Assembly (NCBI GenBank): GCA_019090615.1
Contig: JAHRVQ010000004.1
Location: forward strand, 1-50,010
Reading direction: 5' to 3'
Source of the DNA: Pseudomonadales bacterium
GTDB lineage: Bacteria > Pseudomonadota > Gammaproteobacteria > Pseudomonadales > Azotimanducaceae
Length of the DNA stretch: 50,010 nucleotides
The notes below the pieces were generated by a model. That model had not been told where the DNA came from. It made no database searches and was given only the letters and a program-made list of their open reading frames with translations. Positions 29,683 through 36,324 of the stretch are shown here, piece after piece (the stretch's first letter is position 1; each line of letters starts with the position of its first letter). The position numbers and the translations under genes were made by a program.

Positions 29683-31350
29683 ATGACTGCCATTGAATTG
29701 GCTGTGTTTATCAGCCGAGTTGAGTCAATTTGTGCGGAAATGGGCGCGATTCTGCAGCGAGCGGCCTTTTCGCCGAATATTAAAGATCGGCTGGATTTTT
29801 CCTGTGCGTTATTTGATGCCGAAGGCGAACTATTTGCTCAGGCGGCGCATATTCCTGTGCATCTTGGCAGTATGGCCTTTGCCATGCGGGATATCGTTGG
29901 CCAGGTTGTTTGGCAACCGGGTGATATGCTGATCGTTAACGATCCTTTTCTCGGCGGTACACATTTGCCAGATGTGACCTTAATTGCGCCGCTGTTCGTG
30001 CCACTTGTAGGACCAATAAGCGTACCATTAAGTGCGCCAGAAAAACCGCAATTAGGTATGCAGTCTGATGACACCGATCAGCAACTAGTGTGTTTCGTGG
30101 TAAATCGCGCCCATCATGCCAATATTGGCGCTGCGACACCTGGCTCAATGCCTTTGTCCAGTTCGATTGAGCAAGAAGGGTTGTTAATACCACCAACATT
30201 GATTGTTCGTAACGGGGAGCTTGAGACAGTGGTATTCGAGCAATTATTCGGTGCCCAAACTGGGCGCACTCTCGGCACCGATACGTCGGCAGATATTGCT
30301 GCGCAACTCAGTGCTAACAGGGTTGGCATAACTCGATTAACAGAACTGATAGCAGCATCAACGGTGGCACTTTTCCAGGCTGGTATTGAAGCGATCAATC
30401 GCTATGGTGAAACTATCGCAGCCTCAATATTGGCAAAAATTCCCGTCGGAAGCTATGCGTTTGAGGATGTAATGGATAATGATGGCTATCAGGCGCAGAA
30501 CATTCCTATGAAAGTTAGCATCACCGTTAGCAAATCTGTTGGTGATGGCCAGGAGGCGCAGAGAAATGAAGTGGCTGAGATGCAAGTGGATTTTTCTGGT
30601 TCCGCGATGCAGGTTAAAGGCAATATTAATTGCCCGCTATCAGTTGCCGCTGCGGGGGTGTTCTATGTGTTTCGCTGTTTATTGCCTGCTCGGACGCCAA
30701 ATTGTGCAGGTATCTTTAAAAGCATCAAAGTCATTGCGCCTGCAGGGTCTTTGCTTAACGCGCAAAGACCCGCGGCTACTGCTGCCGGCAACGTTGAAAC
30801 TTCAATGCGGGTGGTAGACCTTGTGTTGGGTGCTTTGGCTAAAGCAATACCCGCGCAGATCCCAGCGGCGAGTCAAGGCACAATGAATAATGTTGCCCTG
30901 GGCGCACGGGGTAATCAGGTATGGGATTATTATGAAACAGTCGGTGGTGGAATGGGGGCTAGTCGCATTAGTGAAGGTCTGTCAGGTGTTCAATGTCATA
31001 TGACCAATACACTAAATACGCCTATAGAAAGTCTTGAAAGCCATTTCCCTGTTCGAGTGATGAGCTATGGTTTGCGTCGTGGCTCTGGTGGTGAGGGTGA
31101 ATTTAAGGGTGGCGATGGCATTATAAGAGAGTTCGTATTTCTTGAGTCGGCTGAATTGACCTTGTTAACAGAGCGCCGTATCAATTCGCCCTGGGGGTTA
31201 GAGGGTGGCGCAGCCGGTCAACCAGGAAGAAATCTGCTAGATGGCAAGGAGTTACCAGCGAAATGTAATTTAAGCGTCAAAGCTGGGCAGGTGCTGAGGA
31301 TAGAGACGCCGGGTGGCGGTGGTTATGGCAGATGGCCAGAGAATCCATAA
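29683..31350 (+). CDS. Hydantoinase B / oxoprolinase B-type protein
   Basis: A 555-residue HyuB-family protein, the size of N-methylhydantoinase or 5-oxoprolinase B subunits. Diagnostic blocks are ILQRAAFSPNIKDRLDFSCA, FAQAAHIPVHLGSMAFAM, GDMLIVNDPFLGGTHLPDVT and the C-terminal GGGGYGRWPENP. ATG 29683 is the start because AGGAG sits 4 bp upstream and homology begins there; longer in-frame sequence to 29485 is not conserved. These enzymes normally need an ATP-using HyuA partner, but none is nearby. Substrate unknown, possibly a cyclic amide such as 5-oxoproline. Confidence 0.88.
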   Translation: MTAIELAVFISRVESICAEMGAILQRAAFSPNIKDRLDFSCALFDAEGELFAQAAHIPVHLGSMAFAMRDIVGQVVWQPGDMLIVNDPFLGGTHLPDVTLIAPLFVPLVGPISVPLSAPEKPQLGMQSDDTDQQLVCFVVNRAHHANIGAATPGSMPLSSSIEQEGLLIPPTLIVRNGELETVVFEQLFGAQTGRTLGTDTSADIAAQLSANRVGITRLTELIAASTVALFQAGIEAINRYGETIAASILAKIPVGSYAFEDVMDNDGYQAQNIPMKVSITVSKSVGDGQEAQRNEVAEMQVDFSGSAMQVKGNINCPLSVAAAGVFYVFRCLLPARTPNCAGIFKSIKVIAPAGSLLNAQRPAATAAGNVETSMRVVDLVLGALAKAIPAQIPAASQGTMNNVALGARGNQVWDYYETVGGGMGASRISEGLSGVQCHMTNTLNTPIESLESHFPVRVMSYGLRRGSGGEGEFKGGDGIIREFVFLESAELTLLTERRINSPWGLEGGAAGQPGRNLLDGKELPAKCNLSVKAGQVLRIETPGGGGYGRWPENP

Positions 31351-31450
31351 CCGTCCTTGCGTTATAGGGCGTATAATAAGTTATTTAATCCTGATCATTC
31401 GACAAAAAGGCGTTAGAATAACGTCCCTGAATTTTAGCGAGAAAAAGCCA

Positions 31451-31777
31451 ATGGATATCATGCAAACTATCAAAGAACAGGTAGAGGGTAATCCGATTCT
31501 TATTTATATGAAGGGATCACCCGATGCACCCCAATGTGGTTTTTCATCGCAGGCAACCCAGGCATTAATGGCCTGTGGGGAAAAATTCGCCTATATCGAT
31601 ATTCTGTCCAATCCGGAAATCCGAGCAAATTTACCGCAATATTCAGAATGGCCAACTTTCCCACAGTTATTTGTTGCCGGTGAGCTAGTGGGTGGCTGCG
31701 ACATTATTATGGAAATGCACCAAAGCGGTGAATTGTTGCCAATCATCAAGGCTGCTGCCCCAGCTGAACAGCCTTGA
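31451..31777 (+). CDS. grxD: Monothiol glutaredoxin GrxD
   Basis: A 108-residue Grx4-type monothiol glutaredoxin with the active site CGFS at 29-32 and the glutathione-binding WPTFPQLFVAGELVGGCDI. It carries glutathione-ligated 2Fe-2S clusters and helps iron-sulfur assembly and iron sensing, often with BolA. ATG 31451 is the right start; upstream in-frame sequence runs into hyuB. The stop codon falls inside the first copy of a tandem repeat. Confidence 0.96.
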   Translation: MDIMQTIKEQVEGNPILIYMKGSPDAPQCGFSSQATQALMACGEKFAYIDILSNPEIRANLPQYSEWPTFPQLFVAGELVGGCDIIMEMHQSGELLPIIKAAAPAEQP

Positions 31778-31819
31778 GCGCAAAACATAAACAGCCTTGA
31801 GCGGATAACAGCCTTGAGC
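31767..31819 (+). repeat. Direct repeats including the grxD stop codon
   Basis: AACAGCCTTGAGCG occurs at 31767-31780 (its TGA is the grxD stop) and at 31790-31803, and AACAGCCTTGAGC at 31807-31819. Spacing is 23 then 17 bp, so the copies have drifted in length. Confidence 0.88.
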
Positions 31820-32142
31820 AACTGAACAATAGCTCAGGGCTAAACACCGTAGCGTACATTTCGGGGACAAACTCTACGGTTAGCGTCAATTGTCTTCAAT
31901 CGGCCTTTTTATCTAACTGCCTTACTTAAGTTAACCTGCGTTCGATGTCCTTCTTCTTGCACGTTTATTTGTCTGGCCTATCTTTTGCCTATGTCTATTT
32001 TTGTGTATATGTCTACTTAATAGTCTGAATATTTGGTGGTCCCTCCTGCTGTTCCTGCGGTTTTTACTTTGCCAGAACTTTGCCTAAGGGCGCATGGACT
32101 ATTAATCGGTGCTAGTTGATGAAAGCTAAAACACATACTTAA
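31820..32142. other. Intergenic region between grxD repeats and Fur boxes
   Basis: About 320 bp with no supported gene on either strand. It is AT-rich with pyrimidine-rich stretches (31930-32060). It must carry the porin promoter near its right end. Confidence 0.5.
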
Positions 32143-32180
32143 TGAGAATGATTTGCATTAAATATAGGGAATGGTTATCA
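32143..32180 (+). promoter_or_regulatory. Two predicted Fur boxes upstream of the porin
   Basis: TGAGAATGATTTGCA (32143-32157) matches the 7-1-7 Fur consensus TGATAATNATTATCA at 11 of 14 defined positions by my count. AGGGAATGGTTATCA (32166-32180) matches at 10 of 14. They lie 31-69 bp before the porin ATG, a typical position for iron-dependent repression. This is prediction from sequence only. Confidence 0.65.
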
Positions 32181-32211
32181 TCCGTGCTCTATTGTGTATT
32201 TCAGGTTAATT

Positions 32212-33492
32212 ATGACTATATCTAAACGACTGGTAATGGGGATTACCTGTCTTATCGGTTCCCAAACAAGTGTTGCTGCAGCGCCTACAATGGAAGAAGT
32301 ATGGCAATTATTGCAAGCGCAGCAGGCTCAGATCGAGCAGCTTCAGGAGGCGTTAACAAGTAGTCAACGGCGGTTGGAAGATGCCCAGTCGCGCATTGCA
32401 TCGCAGAGTGCTAACCAGTCTGCACGCCTAACCGTGGCAGAAAATGCCATAGAAGCCACTGCAAACTCCATAGAAACTGTGGCCTATAATAACGAAGGCT
32501 CTGATACCCACATTGGCGGTTATGGCGAGCTTCATTATAATAATCTCGATAGTGGTGACGAGTTTGACCTGCATCGGTTTGTGTTATTTTTTAATCATAA
32601 ATTTAATGATCAATTTTCTCTTTATTCAGAATTAGAAGTTGAGCACAATATTGCCGGCGAAGGTCAAGTGGGTGAAGTTGAGGTAGAACAGGCATTTATC
32701 CGCTGGGATTATAATGCCAATCATCATGCTGATATGGGTGTTTTCCTAGTTCCAGTCGGTATTTTGAATGAAACCCATGAGCCGGATACCTTTTATGGGG
32801 TGGAGCGTAATTCAGTTGAAAAACAGATTGTTCCGGCCACCTGGTGGGAAGCTGGGGTGTCCTTCGCAGGCGAAATTGCACCAGGCTGGGGTTATGATTT
32901 AGCGGCCCATTCAGGACTTAATCTGGATACAGATAATGATAAAGGGTCTAAACGAAGCAGTATTCGGTCTGCACGACAAAAAACCGGTAAGGCCAATGGC
33001 GATAGTTTGGCTTATACCGCACGGTTGCGTTTTAACGGTATAGCGGGTTTGCAATGGAATGCCACTATTCAGTATCAGGCCGATCTTGCGCAAGGTGATG
33101 CTGATGCCGTGGGTATTGATGAGATAGATGCGATGCTGTTTGAAACTAATCTTAATTATCAAGTGGGTAGTTTTGGCCTGAGAGCGCTTTATGCCCGGTG
33201 GGATATAGATAACGAAATTGAAATCCTTAATGCCGGCGCTGATGAGCAGGAAGGCTGGTACCTGGAGCCATCCTATAAATTTGGTGACAGCTTTGGCTTG
33301 TTTGCACGATATAGCAGTTATGATTTGACTGCAGGTGACAGCGCTGCCAGTAATGAAAAGAAACAATTTGATATTGGTTTTAACTATTGGCCGCAGGAAA
33401 ACGTAGTGATCAAGGTTGATGTCCAGCGTCAGGATAACGATAACGGCGATGATAATGATGGCTTTAACGTAGGTGTTGGTTATAGCTTCTAA
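32212..33492 (+). CDS. Outer-membrane porin with coiled-coil N-terminus
   Basis: A 426-residue protein. It has a signal peptide (cleavage near VAAA), a coiled coil of about 60 residues (MEEVWQLLQAQQAQIEQLQ onward), then repeated amphipathic beta strands ending in aromatic GVGYSF, the outer-membrane insertion signal. It resembles OprO/OprP-like or Fur-regulated putative porins of the DcaP/OprP kind. ATG 32212 (AGG 6 bp upstream) is preferred to GTG 32194. The flavoprotein gene overlaps its end by 20 bp, so they form an operon. Cargo is unknown; iron-related regulation is inferred from the upstream Fur boxes. Confidence 0.85.
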   Translation: MTISKRLVMGITCLIGSQTSVAAAPTMEEVWQLLQAQQAQIEQLQEALTSSQRRLEDAQSRIASQSANQSARLTVAENAIEATANSIETVAYNNEGSDTHIGGYGELHYNNLDSGDEFDLHRFVLFFNHKFNDQFSLYSELEVEHNIAGEGQVGEVEVEQAFIRWDYNANHHADMGVFLVPVGILNETHEPDTFYGVERNSVEKQIVPATWWEAGVSFAGEIAPGWGYDLAAHSGLNLDTDNDKGSKRSSIRSARQKTGKANGDSLAYTARLRFNGIAGLQWNATIQYQADLAQGDADAVGIDEIDAMLFETNLNYQVGSFGLRALYARWDIDNEIEILNAGADEQEGWYLEPSYKFGDSFGLFARYSSYDLTAGDSAASNEKKQFDIGFNYWPQENVVIKVDVQRQDNDNGDDNDGFNVGVGYSF

Positions 33493-34060
33493 TTTTATAA
33501 TCCGCCGGATTAAAATCCTGCCACTATCGCGATTTGCGGTGGTGGCAAGTTTTTTTTGCTTATGTCAGTGGTCCTTACAGGCAACTGCAATGGTTTACCT
33601 GACGGCGAGCGACTTCCTGCAGCAAAACCTGGGTGAGCAGAGGCAACTTAAAACCTTATGGCTTAAGGATTATCACCAGCAGGCAGCGCAGCAGATTTTT
33701 GGTCATAGGTATCGTGGCCTGAGAATTAGATATTGGCAGCAGGCAGGCACAACTGCCTGGATACTGGATGAAATTGGCAAAGATCTGCCCATTACCATCG
33801 GTATCGTCATCGACGATGATAAAATACGGCGGTTAAGTATCCTTGAGTTTCGCGAGTCTCGCGGTGGCGAGGTCCGTCATCCCTTTTTTACTCGCCAGTT
33901 TGATGATCTCTGGCTTAAGCCAGATTATCGGTTAAGCGGATCTATCGATGGTATTTCTGGCGCCACCTTGTCGGTAAGGGCGGTTTCAAAAGTAAGTCGT
34001 TTTGCACTCTTTTTACAGCACAGCCTTAAGCGTGATCTGGTGAAAGCTAGTGTCCCTTAA
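33473..34060 (+). CDS. Periplasmic FMN-binding (flavinylated) protein
   Basis: A 195-residue secreted protein: basic n-region (RRIKILPLSR), hydrophobic core, then an FMN-binding domain. The sequence DGISGATLS at residues 159-167 matches the ApbE flavin-transferase motif, in which the Thr (T165) receives FMN covalently. Such proteins move electrons outside the cytoplasm, as NqrC, RnfG and NosR domains do. The start is uncertain: GTG 33473 overlaps the porin end by 20 bp, and TTG 33476 is close. Following gene is a PepSY membrane protein. Partner ApbE is not in the window. Confidence 0.85.
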   Translation: MLVIASNFIIRRIKILPLSRFAVVASFFCLCQWSLQATAMVYLTASDFLQQNLGEQRQLKTLWLKDYHQQAAQQIFGHRYRGLRIRYWQQAGTTAWILDEIGKDLPITIGIVIDDDKIRRLSILEFRESRGGEVRHPFFTRQFDDLWLKPDYRLSGSIDGISGATLSVRAVSKVSRFALFLQHSLKRDLVKASVP

Positions 34061-34123
34061 CGTTGTTTATGCGCAAAAATTGTGCCGATGTATATGTCGC
34101 CTAAAACCCGTCTGAGTTGCTGA

Positions 34124-34151
34124 TTTTGGCGGCACGTTTTTGCTGCCAAAA
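34124..34151. other. Stem-loop between flavoprotein and PepSY genes
   Basis: TTTTGGCGGCA (34124-34134) pairs with TGCTGCCAAAA (34141-34151), an 11-bp stem with one G-T wobble and a 6-nt loop. No T run follows, so termination is uncertain; it could be an attenuator or an RNA-processing site separating expression of the two genes. Confidence 0.6.
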
Positions 34152-34220
34152 ATACCTATATTCAGTTAATCAGGGTTTATCTACCTTCTGCGGCCACAAG
34201 CCGATAAAATCGAGTCAAAA

Positions 34221-34243
34221 TGATGCCGATTATGATTCGGCAT
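34221..34243. promoter_or_regulatory. Palindrome overlapping a possible weak Fur box
   Basis: ATGCCGA (34223-34229) and TCGGCAT (34237-34243) form a 7-bp palindrome with a 7-bp spacer, 38 bp before the PepSY ATG. The overlapping TGATGCCGATTATGA (34221-34235) matches the Fur 7-1-7 consensus at about 10 of 14 positions. It is either a separate operator or a second iron-responsive site. Confidence 0.4.
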
Positions 34244-34280
34244 ATCAGTCCATGTCTTTAGAATCTGTTAATTAAGTCTC

Positions 34281-34982
34281 ATGTTGAAAGAATCCAGCCA
34301 AAAATTACTGCGCAAAATACATAAAAAAATCGGAGTATTTTTCTCCCTGTTTTTAATACTACTAGCTGTTACCGGTATCCTGCTTAATCATACAGAGACT
34401 CTGCAATTGAATAAGCATACTGTGCCTGCAGCGGTTGCGGCGCGCTATTATGATAGCGGTGAAGCGGTATTTGGCTATCAACTACTGGGTCAGTATTATT
34501 ACACTCTGAGCGGGTTCTTATATCAGGATCAATTAACGCTGGGGCCCTGTGAACAACTTCAGGGGGTTGCGTCGTCGGCTGGGGGATTGCAGGCCTTATG
34601 TGCAGGCGAGTTGCTGATTTTTACAGATCAACAACAACTGGTGGAGCGATTAGGTAGTGTGCATGGATTACCAGCCAATATTAGCCGATTGGGGGTATAT
34701 AATGGCGGGTTGTTACTTGAGAGTAATCTGGGTGTTGTTGGCTTAAACCTGGAGAGTTTAGAAATCGCCTCTGTGGATTTGCCCGAAGCCAATTGGCCAG
34801 TGCTGGTCAAGGTGCCAACGGTGGCGATGCTTGATAACAGCATTCAATGGCAGCAGTTTATTCTGGACTTACATAGTGGTGCTTATCTGGGCGAAATGGG
34901 TAAGCTGTTGGTAGATATTGTTGGTGTATTTGTTATCGGCATAATAATTTCTGGCTTGGTAATGTGGCGAAATCCACGATAA
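34281..34982 (+). CDS. PepSY-associated membrane protein
   Basis: A 233-residue protein with membrane helices at about 17-36 and 206-228 around a large periplasmic loop. HKKIGVFFSLFLILLAVTGILLNH and the C-terminal LDLHSGAYLGEMGKLLVDIVG are hallmarks of the PepSY_TM family, which includes ferric-siderophore and periplasmic flavin-linked reductases. Conserved-looking H14 and H37 flank the first helix. With the FMN-binding protein and Fur-box porin upstream it plausibly passes electrons from the membrane quinone pool to periplasmic iron; that function is inferred. Confidence 0.82.
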   Translation: MLKESSQKLLRKIHKKIGVFFSLFLILLAVTGILLNHTETLQLNKHTVPAAVAARYYDSGEAVFGYQLLGQYYYTLSGFLYQDQLTLGPCEQLQGVASSAGGLQALCAGELLIFTDQQQLVERLGSVHGLPANISRLGVYNGGLLLESNLGVVGLNLESLEIASVDLPEANWPVLVKVPTVAMLDNSIQWQQFILDLHSGAYLGEMGKLLVDIVGVFVIGIIISGLVMWRNPR

Positions 34983-35045
34983 AGTTTATACTGTTCGCCC
35001 ATTTCACATTAACCTGAAATCATTAGACTGAAAAGGACACTACTC

Positions 35046-35465
35046 ATGGGTTTGAAAGATAGCAAAACCGAACAAAATTTAAAGGATGCTTTTGCTGGCG
35101 AGTCTCAGGCGAATCGTCGGTATCTGTATTTTGCAGCAAAAGCAGATGTCGAGGGTTATAACGACGTTTCAACTGTATTTCGTTCTACTGCTGAAGGTGA
35201 AACGGGTCATGCGCACGGGCATCTGGAATATCTTGAAGAAACAGGTGATCCAGCTACTGGTTTGCCAATTGGCGCGACCGCTGATAACTTGAAAGCGGCT
35301 GTTGCAGGCGAAACTCATGAATACACGGATATGTATCCTGGTATGGCCAAGACTGCACGAGAAGAAGGCTTTGATGAGATTGCTGACTGGATGGAAACGC
35401 TGGCTAAGGCCGAGCGCTCTCATGCTAACCGATTCCAGAAAGCTTTAGATTCTTTGGATAGCTAG
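35046..35465 (+). CDS. Rubrerythrin-family diiron protein lacking rubredoxin domain
   Basis: A 139-residue ferritin-like four-helix protein with likely diiron ligands E19, E52, H55, E89, E123 and H126 in the motifs [36 protein letters not shown] and [10 protein letters not shown]. Rubrerythrins reduce hydrogen peroxide or handle iron. The usual C-terminal rubredoxin domain is absent, so it needs an external electron donor or works otherwise. It lies 63 bp after the PepSY gene on the same strand, linking it to the iron-related set. Confidence 0.92.
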
Positions 35466-35697
35466 TATTTGCTGCCCAGGGGATTAGTTAGGGGTTGGAT
35501 TGCTGTGATAGATTGCAACCCCACACTGGGCATACGCAAGCTGGATATTCGTAAAAATCTGGTTGGTTATAACCCCCCGAGGGTTCATAGCTGGAACCTT
35601 TTGCTGCCAGGTTTCTGTCGATGCCGGTTTTTATCGGCCTAGATTTTGTTGACAAAAGGGGTTCTGGTTCAGTGCTATTTACGCCGCCATTACAGGG

Positions 35698-36324
35698 TTA
35701 AATTCCTTCAAGCCCGCCCAGCTCCTTCCAACGGTTGACAATTTCGCAAAATATCTCGGCAGTCTTGTCGCAGTCATATAATGCTGAATGTGCCTCGTTG
35801 GCATCAAATTCGATATTCCCGACCTCACAGGCTCTTGCCAGCACGGTCTGTCCAAATGCGAGACCGCAGAGAGTGGCGGTATCAAATGAAGAAAACGGGT
35901 GGAAAGGGTTACGTTTAATGCCGCAACGATTCACCGCTTCATTCAGAAAACCCTGGTCGAAAGCTGCATTGTGGGCAACAATAATTGCTCGTTGGCAGCC
36001 AGTCTCTCGAATTTGCTTTCTAATGCCGGTAAATGCTTCGCCCAGTGCAATTTCTTCTGGAACTGCCTGGCGTAACGGGTTTTCAGGGTCGATACCGGTA
36101 AAGTCAAGTGATGATTGTTCGATATTGGCGCCATCAAAGGGTTCAACATTAAAGAAAAACTTTTCTCCAGGGACCAGTTGGCCCTGATCGTTCATATCAA
36201 CAATCACCGCTGCAAATTCCAGCAGGGCGTCAGTTTTAGCGTTGAAGCCGCCAGTTTCGAGATCAACCACAACGGGTAGATATCCTCTGAATCGGTGTGC
36301 TATAGGGCTTTTGGGGTTGCTCAA
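35698..36324 (-). CDS. rnt: Ribonuclease T
   Basis: A 208-residue DEDDh 3'-5' exonuclease that trims tRNA and other stable RNA 3' ends. Active-site residues are D21 and E23 ([11 protein letters not shown]), D123 ([14 protein letters not shown]), H179 and D184 ([17 protein letters not shown]). The start is TTG 36324, supported by AAGGA about 6 bp upstream and by the pyrC stop only 8 bp away. It is downstream of pyrC in the same operon, as in Pseudomonas. Confidence 0.95.

Follow-up and report, generated by a model that had tools for sequence, protein, structure and literature searches.

A stretch of 50,010 nucleotides (nt) from contig JAHRVQ010000004.1 of a Pseudomonadales bacterium, referred to here as the window, contains a cassette of three open reading frames (ORFs) on the + strand, which encode a porin, a secreted FMN_bind protein and a membrane protein of the PepSY_TM family, in this order, behind one strong candidate operator of the Fur type. 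An earlier note on this DNA had described the cassette as a putative Fur-controlled system for periplasmic iron reduction, and the three ORFs were confirmed at the positions it gave. The porin gene (32212–33492) specifies 426 amino acids, with 16 predicted strands and an N-terminal helical segment. The gene for the FMN_bind protein (33473–34060; 195 amino acids; PF04205) carries a flavinylation motif with T165, and the third gene (34281–34982; 233 amino acids; PF03929) codes for a half-size PepSY_TM protein, modelled with two transmembrane (TM)-type helices and a beta ectodomain. The overlap of the first two genes claimed by the earlier note amounts to 20 nt if the FMN_bind gene starts at GTG 33473, which is plausible by eye, while the porin itself is more likely to start at ATG 32212 than at the alternative GTG 32194 because of the ribosome site and the signal peptide, again judged by eye. 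An Rfam scan of positions 31300–36000 gave no matches.

The operator was located with a motif that was derived de novo, without a starting consensus, from the regions upstream of the porin gene in 69 relatives, the window being held out. The motif reads AAATGCAAATcATTaTCATTT, which we read as a Fur box, and its match in the window, TAATGAGAATGATTTGCATTA at 32140–32160, scores 29.9 bits and tops the entire 50 kb, with the next different place at 10.5 bits. At least 10 bits are reached by 63 of the 69 training promoters, compared with 1.4% of the control windows (976 in total, taken from locus flanks and mostly coding). The same level is reached at 24 of 27 further porin loci (19/20 among those with at least 150 nt upstream), a set that may overlap the training set (L007 seems to come from the contig that also supplied training locus L063). 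When the Escherichia coli Fur consensus is used instead, 40 of 68 relative loci have a match of at least 13/19 upstream of the porin, against expectations of 4.4 from shuffles and 4.0 when scaled from 646 control upstream regions. By this consensus the site in the window is itself unremarkable (13/19, equalled in 65 of 1000 shuffles), and the consensus alone was rejected as a detector because it finds 14/19 at three other places in the window, which the de novo motif separated. The earlier note had counted two Fur-like boxes; the second, at about 32161–32188, matches the E. coli consensus at 12/19 and the family motif at about 4 bits, and was discarded as strong evidence, leaving the single site at 32140–32160. 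A sigma-70-like promoter (TTTGCA-18-TATCAT, 32152–32181, + strand; 9/12 in a consensus scan) has its −35 element inside the operator, which is the usual geometry for repression; taken alone this match is weak, because ten such sites were found in the region and 7.2 were expected. A Fur-type operator lying over a promoter, as in members of a Fur regulon, is predicted here from sequence. The motif also lies at the porin genes of L139 (23.4 bits), L142 (30.2 and 23.0), L144 (27.4) and L146 (19.3) and is found where a TonB-receptor ORF begins on contig 45 of the window's own genome (locus L134; 20.8 and 20.7 bits), and it is absent at a level of 9 bits from L127–L129, L132, L133 and L072, where genes of the FMN-PepSY type have other partners.

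The grouping of the three genes recurs widely. A contig scan with the single FMN_bind protein as query returned no relatives, and an alignment-based contig scan confirmed at least 544, of which 80 were kept for locus counts. Where the flank suffices for a judgement, the gene immediately before the FMN_bind gene, and on its strand, is the porin gene in 68 of 75 loci, and the gene immediately after it is a PepSY gene in 72 of 74. Among 369 genomes of the class (own genome included; thresholds E ≤ 1e-10 for the FMN_bind protein and E ≤ 1e-20 for the porin), the FMN_bind gene was found in 77, the porin gene in 84 and both in 74, and the two are adjacent in the same order in 70 of these 74; the association has a Fisher p of about 2e-62, a value that ignores relatedness. 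The order is represented by 194 genomes, with the FMN_bind gene in 48, the porin gene in 41 and both in 38, and the ten with the FMN_bind gene only comprise five weak matches (E 1e-9 to 4e-4) and five in, or resembling, types with other partners. Loci were retrieved from 30 of the 48 FMN-positive genomes, including the window's own, and in the 29 others (L006–L034) a PepSY homologue is present in 29/29, that of L032 being at threshold, and the porin in 27/29. The earlier note had made its proposal depend on the three genes occurring together in other genomes, and they clearly do so at each of these levels; together with the operator, the grouping exceeds chance. Two of the contigs with the cassette (L075 and L116) are titled as Klebsiella pneumoniae metagenome bins, and these titles look misassigned. 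Spongiibacter pelagi (L047) also has the complete cassette. Loci of five of the ten porin-bearing, FMN-negative genomes of the class sample were examined (L138–L142): the contig of L142 ends before an FMN_bind gene could be seen, and L139 (5751–8992) has, under its Fur-motif site, a porin homologue followed by another type of FMN_bind gene, an ApbE gene and a gene for a membrane protein with a sub-threshold b561-type match.

The second protein of the cassette has the features expected of a substrate of the flavin transferase ApbE, in agreement with the earlier note. It matches PF04205 at 33.9 bits (cut-off 22), its signal peptide was recognised by eye, and T165 (codon 33965–33967) lies within the stretch DGISGATLS, in which G163, A164 and T165 are invariant across 81/81 aligned sequences (the window and 80 relatives). 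The pattern [S/T]GA[S/T] is the ApbE flavinylation motif (PMC8238504), and a predicted FMN_bind domain and this motif occur in one protein. ApbE itself is encoded elsewhere in the genome, with four matches and none on the window's contig, and is in this sense available to the substrate.

The third protein is a member of the PepSY_TM family (PF03929; 51.9 bits, cut-off 28.8), as the earlier note had proposed in calling it a PepSY membrane protein; a PepSY alpha/beta domain was considered and rejected, as the structural model shows an all-beta ectodomain instead. In this model (mean predicted local distance difference test score, pLDDT, 93.5), long TM-type helices at residues 2–36 and 205–230 enclose 13 strands, which among solved structures come closest to beta-propeller and hemopexin domains. 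The best of these matches has an E of 0.0027, none reaches 0.001 and the TM-score is about 0.3, and because the fold matches are weak we use the label 'propeller-like' tentatively. Three histidines are kept among the relatives (H14 in 67/67, H37 in 65/67 and H198 in 67/67). As one two-helix unit equals half of a FoxB-like bundle, we infer, in a simple step from the model, that the protein may work as a homodimer; a homodimer has likewise been proposed for FezC (PMC11334425).

The porin was assigned by its fold. Its AlphaFold2 model (pLDDT 85.2) predicts a 16-stranded barrel and, at residues 27–93, an N-terminal segment that is helical, of which 72–92 are of low confidence. The sequence falls below every Pfam cut-off and its profile found no PDB chain by sequence, and for this latter reason a fold search was used, in which Foldseek matched OmpC, OmpF and OprP at E of about 1e-14. 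Of 66 aligned porins, 59 match Porin_O_P (PF07396) at E ≤ 0.01, the window's own not being among them. The label ExtI, a protein of selenite/tellurite operons, was rejected for it (NCBIfam 19.3 bits, cut-off 150). Downstream of the porin stop codon, within the start of the FMN_bind ORF, a terminator-like hairpin with a T-run (33519–33547, + strand; 13-pair stem, fold z −3.6) overlaps the likely signal-peptide codons. The region as a whole has seven terminator-like sites where 3.4 are expected. Of 70 relatives, 26 have a site of this kind in the 150 nt that follow the porin stop (dinucleotide shuffles: mean 0.95, maximum 3), and 5/68 have one in the matching stretch after the FMN_bind stop. The hairpin probably raises the abundance of the porin over the redox proteins by attenuation. 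The gap between the second and third genes (34061–34280) also holds terminator-like sites, together with a doubtful Fur site (34218–34238, + strand), which at 10.5 bits is the window's second best and lies below the 99% level of the control windows (10.9).

A link to Fe(II) import comes from the neighbourhoods of relatives. In L136, from a genome of the same family, fur, feoB, porin, FMN_bind and PepSY genes stand in a row on one strand; feoB is near the cassette in three of the 80 relative loci (L048, L075 and L104), where chance would give about 0.25 over 835,960 bases (assuming genomes of about 3.3 Mb with a single feoB each); and in L142 feoB is divergent from the porin gene, with the sites of 30.2 and 23.0 bits between them. 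FeoB was confirmed by Pfam in all five of these loci. In the window's own genome FeoB_C is matched once, on contig 58. A second iron-type locus of this genome, L134 on contig 45 (1113–11850), has two TonB receptors and a periplasmic binding protein, as well as a row of DUF6662, FMN_bind, ApbE and small membrane protein genes, with Fur-motif sites of 20.8, 20.7 and 14.4 bits.

Some relatives of the FMN-PepSY pair have other partners. In L042, L053, L062, L085 and L102, of which two are titled Oceanobacter and one Thalassolituus, a CCP/MauG-like lipoprotein replaces the porin and an imelysin operon lies opposite (Pfam on L042 only), so that the pair is near imelysin-type genes in five loci. In L072 a LolB-MPAB_Lcp oxygenase fusion (Pfam) takes the porin's place before FMN-PepSY type genes, and ORFs resembling this fusion precede such genes in L127, L128 and L129, in all four cases without the Fur motif. 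In L132 and L133 the pair goes with a DUF3034 protein and a small unassigned protein, again without the Fur motif (Pfam on L132 only), and in L084 no recognised protein is found where the porin would stand. Second porin copies, 40–44% identical, directly follow imelysin-DHOR-DUF1513-imelysin genes in L120–L125, six loci chosen for such copies, and in L145 (Pfam on L120 only); a ferritin-like gene adjoins this group in L145. The P. aeruginosa PA4370–4373 type is a Fur-regulated imelysin operon with a di-heme peroxidase (PMC3143127). The likeness to such operons lies in the paralogous porin that follows them and in the five loci with the pair near such genes, whereas the window's cassette has no imelysin gene.

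Flavinylated PepSY-like systems for iron are known already: PepSY-like flavinylation gene clusters have reported links with both iron and Fur (PMC8238504, by Meheust et al. 2021). They resemble the cassette in that a PF03929 membrane protein is encoded beside a secreted flavinylation substrate, and the PepSY_TM gene of the window lies, like the PF03929 or PF16357 genes of these clusters, no more than five genes from such a substrate. In contrast to these clusters, where DUF2271 is present in 2833 of 3220, often with ApbE and DUF4198, the cassette has an FMN_bind protein and a dedicated porin, no ApbE gene in the operon, and two long TM-type helices in the model where the PepSY-like proteins of that paper have three; the term porin does not occur in it. 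FoxB, a ferrisiderophore reductase (PDB 7ABW), is similar in the sequence of its helices (E 1.2e-7 over the full length) and differs in having four TM helices and two PepSY ectodomains, where the cassette protein is modelled with only two long helices around an ectodomain that is all beta; FoxB is not among the best 50 of 857 Foldseek matches of this model. Vibrio cholerae VciB, according to work cited in PMC8238504 and PMC12004947, reportedly aids the transport of Fe(II) by promoting the reduction of Fe(III), and, compared by description only, differs from the PepSY_TM protein in its modelled four or more TM segments (PMC13038864) and in lacking an association with components of flavinylation (PMC8238504). 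The trio was not found in the accessible parts of four Shewanella Fur papers (PMC3790847, PMC12442407, PMC8891985 and PMC7732582), nor was a description of the porin-FMN-PepSY combination found in the open-access literature, as far as its text was accessible. That Shewanella literature lists an inner-membrane protein, SO_3344, with a Fur motif. Four features of the cassette appear to be new, in that searches of open-access papers yielded no description of them: a porin dedicated to the unit, a PepSY_TM protein of half size with a beta ectodomain, the recurrent operator and the attenuator-like hairpin.

We propose, with a probability of roughly 0.65 and judging from sequence and comparison, that the cassette is a Fur-repressed, TonB-independent system for periplasmic iron reduction that feeds FeoB. 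Comparative evidence supports the operator, the three-gene unit, the motif and the link to Fe(II) import in the earlier note's proposal, and the remainder is put forward here as a model. In this model, Fur would leave the site at 32140–32160 when iron is short and the operon would be transcribed, the porin may admit small ferric complexes to the periplasm by diffusion, and a PepSY_TM homodimer, which by analogy with its family would carry b-type hemes on His14, His37 and His198, would carry electrons over the inner membrane, with quinol or a cytosolic donor as their source. The FMN_bind protein, to which one of the genome's ApbE enzymes would presumably attach a flavin at T165, would hand these electrons to ferric iron, and FeoB, whose gene adjoins the cassette in some relatives and lies on a different contig in the window's genome, would import the resulting Fe(II); owing to the hairpin, the porin would probably outnumber the redox proteins.

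Several observations weigh against this proposal. Only one of the six same-family genomes listed (G133; locus L136) has the FMN_bind gene, so that the cassette is unevenly distributed within the family to which the window belongs, and that locus scores weakly for the motif (13.2 and 11.8 bits). Ten of the 84 porin-bearing genomes of the class sample lack an FMN_bind match, and in L146 a porin gene stands under its 19.3-bit site without FMN_bind or PepSY genes. The pair is not strictly porin-dependent either, as 7/75 loci lack the porin, and it may serve another acceptor, because in five of these CCP/MauG-like proteins stand in its place. The motif is missing from L033 (−6.3 bits) and from the imelysin loci L121–L123, and a site of 11.1 bits is present in L135, a locus taken for a weak porin match. 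In the window itself, the gap of 220 nt from the FMN_bind stop to the PepSY start exceeds that in 77 relatives (median −4, maximum 154 nt), the PepSY_TM protein has Ala at position 201, where 65/67 have Arg, and its ectodomain is unlike that of FoxB. Finally, no feoB was seen in the examined flanks of 77 of the 80 loci.

The main rival, which we regard as unlikely but take most seriously, sees in the FMN-PepSY pair a periplasmic electron donor of general use that is induced at low iron, an iron-sparing or repair module that serves, for example, di-heme peroxidases or peroxide defence, with the porin being a low-iron general porin in a shared operon. The pair's occurrence beside CCP/MauG-like and imelysin/DHOR genes, and beside the DUF3034 protein and the LolB-MPAB_Lcp fusion, fits this, as does the porin that stands alone in L146, whereas the regularity of the porin as upstream partner (68/75 loci; adjacent in 70/74 genomes) and the feoB neighbours weigh against it. 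A rubrerythrin gene (35046–35465, + strand; PF02915, 102.6 bits) lies 63 nt downstream of the PepSY gene and is a possible accessory of the cassette; being next in line in the window it suits a general donor, but it is a rare neighbour, found downstream in only two of the 80 relative loci (L040 and L070). That the porin passes another metal such as copper, or a small redox shuttle such as oxidised and reduced flavins, for reduction by the pair seems to us improbable: the PepSY_TM protein CrpH can serve copper (PMC13038864) and the porin has its faint match to ExtI, but the operator is recurrent and of the Fur type and feoB is among the neighbours, and a flavin shuttle would still be compatible with iron. 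Lineage-wide synteny without a functional link is very improbable, since the three genes stay together in most loci across many families of the class and no other flanking family exceeds 13 of the 80 loci. In its favour, other families recur as neighbours too, namely class-III aminotransferases in 13 of these loci and homologues of the window's glutaredoxin (31448–31777, + strand; PF00462) within the flanks of 11/80.

To our knowledge, the passage of non-siderophore iron across the outer membrane and its reduction before Feo are poorly defined in Gram-negative bacteria. The cassette also suggests that the PepSY_TM family includes a two-helix form whose ectodomain is propeller-like. We would wager slightly against the most extended form of our proposal, namely a widespread, as yet unnamed route of TonB- and siderophore-independent iron uptake in Gammaproteobacteria, in which an iron porin, a flavinylated shuttle and a half-size, propeller-capped PepSY_TM dimer acting as a FoxB-like wire, with an attenuator-set excess of the porin, would feed FeoB. 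If iron reduction is indeed its function, this Fur-operator unit, whose FMN_bind gene is present in 77 of 369 genomes of the class, would put names to parts of the pathway by which non-siderophore iron enters the cell and is reduced.

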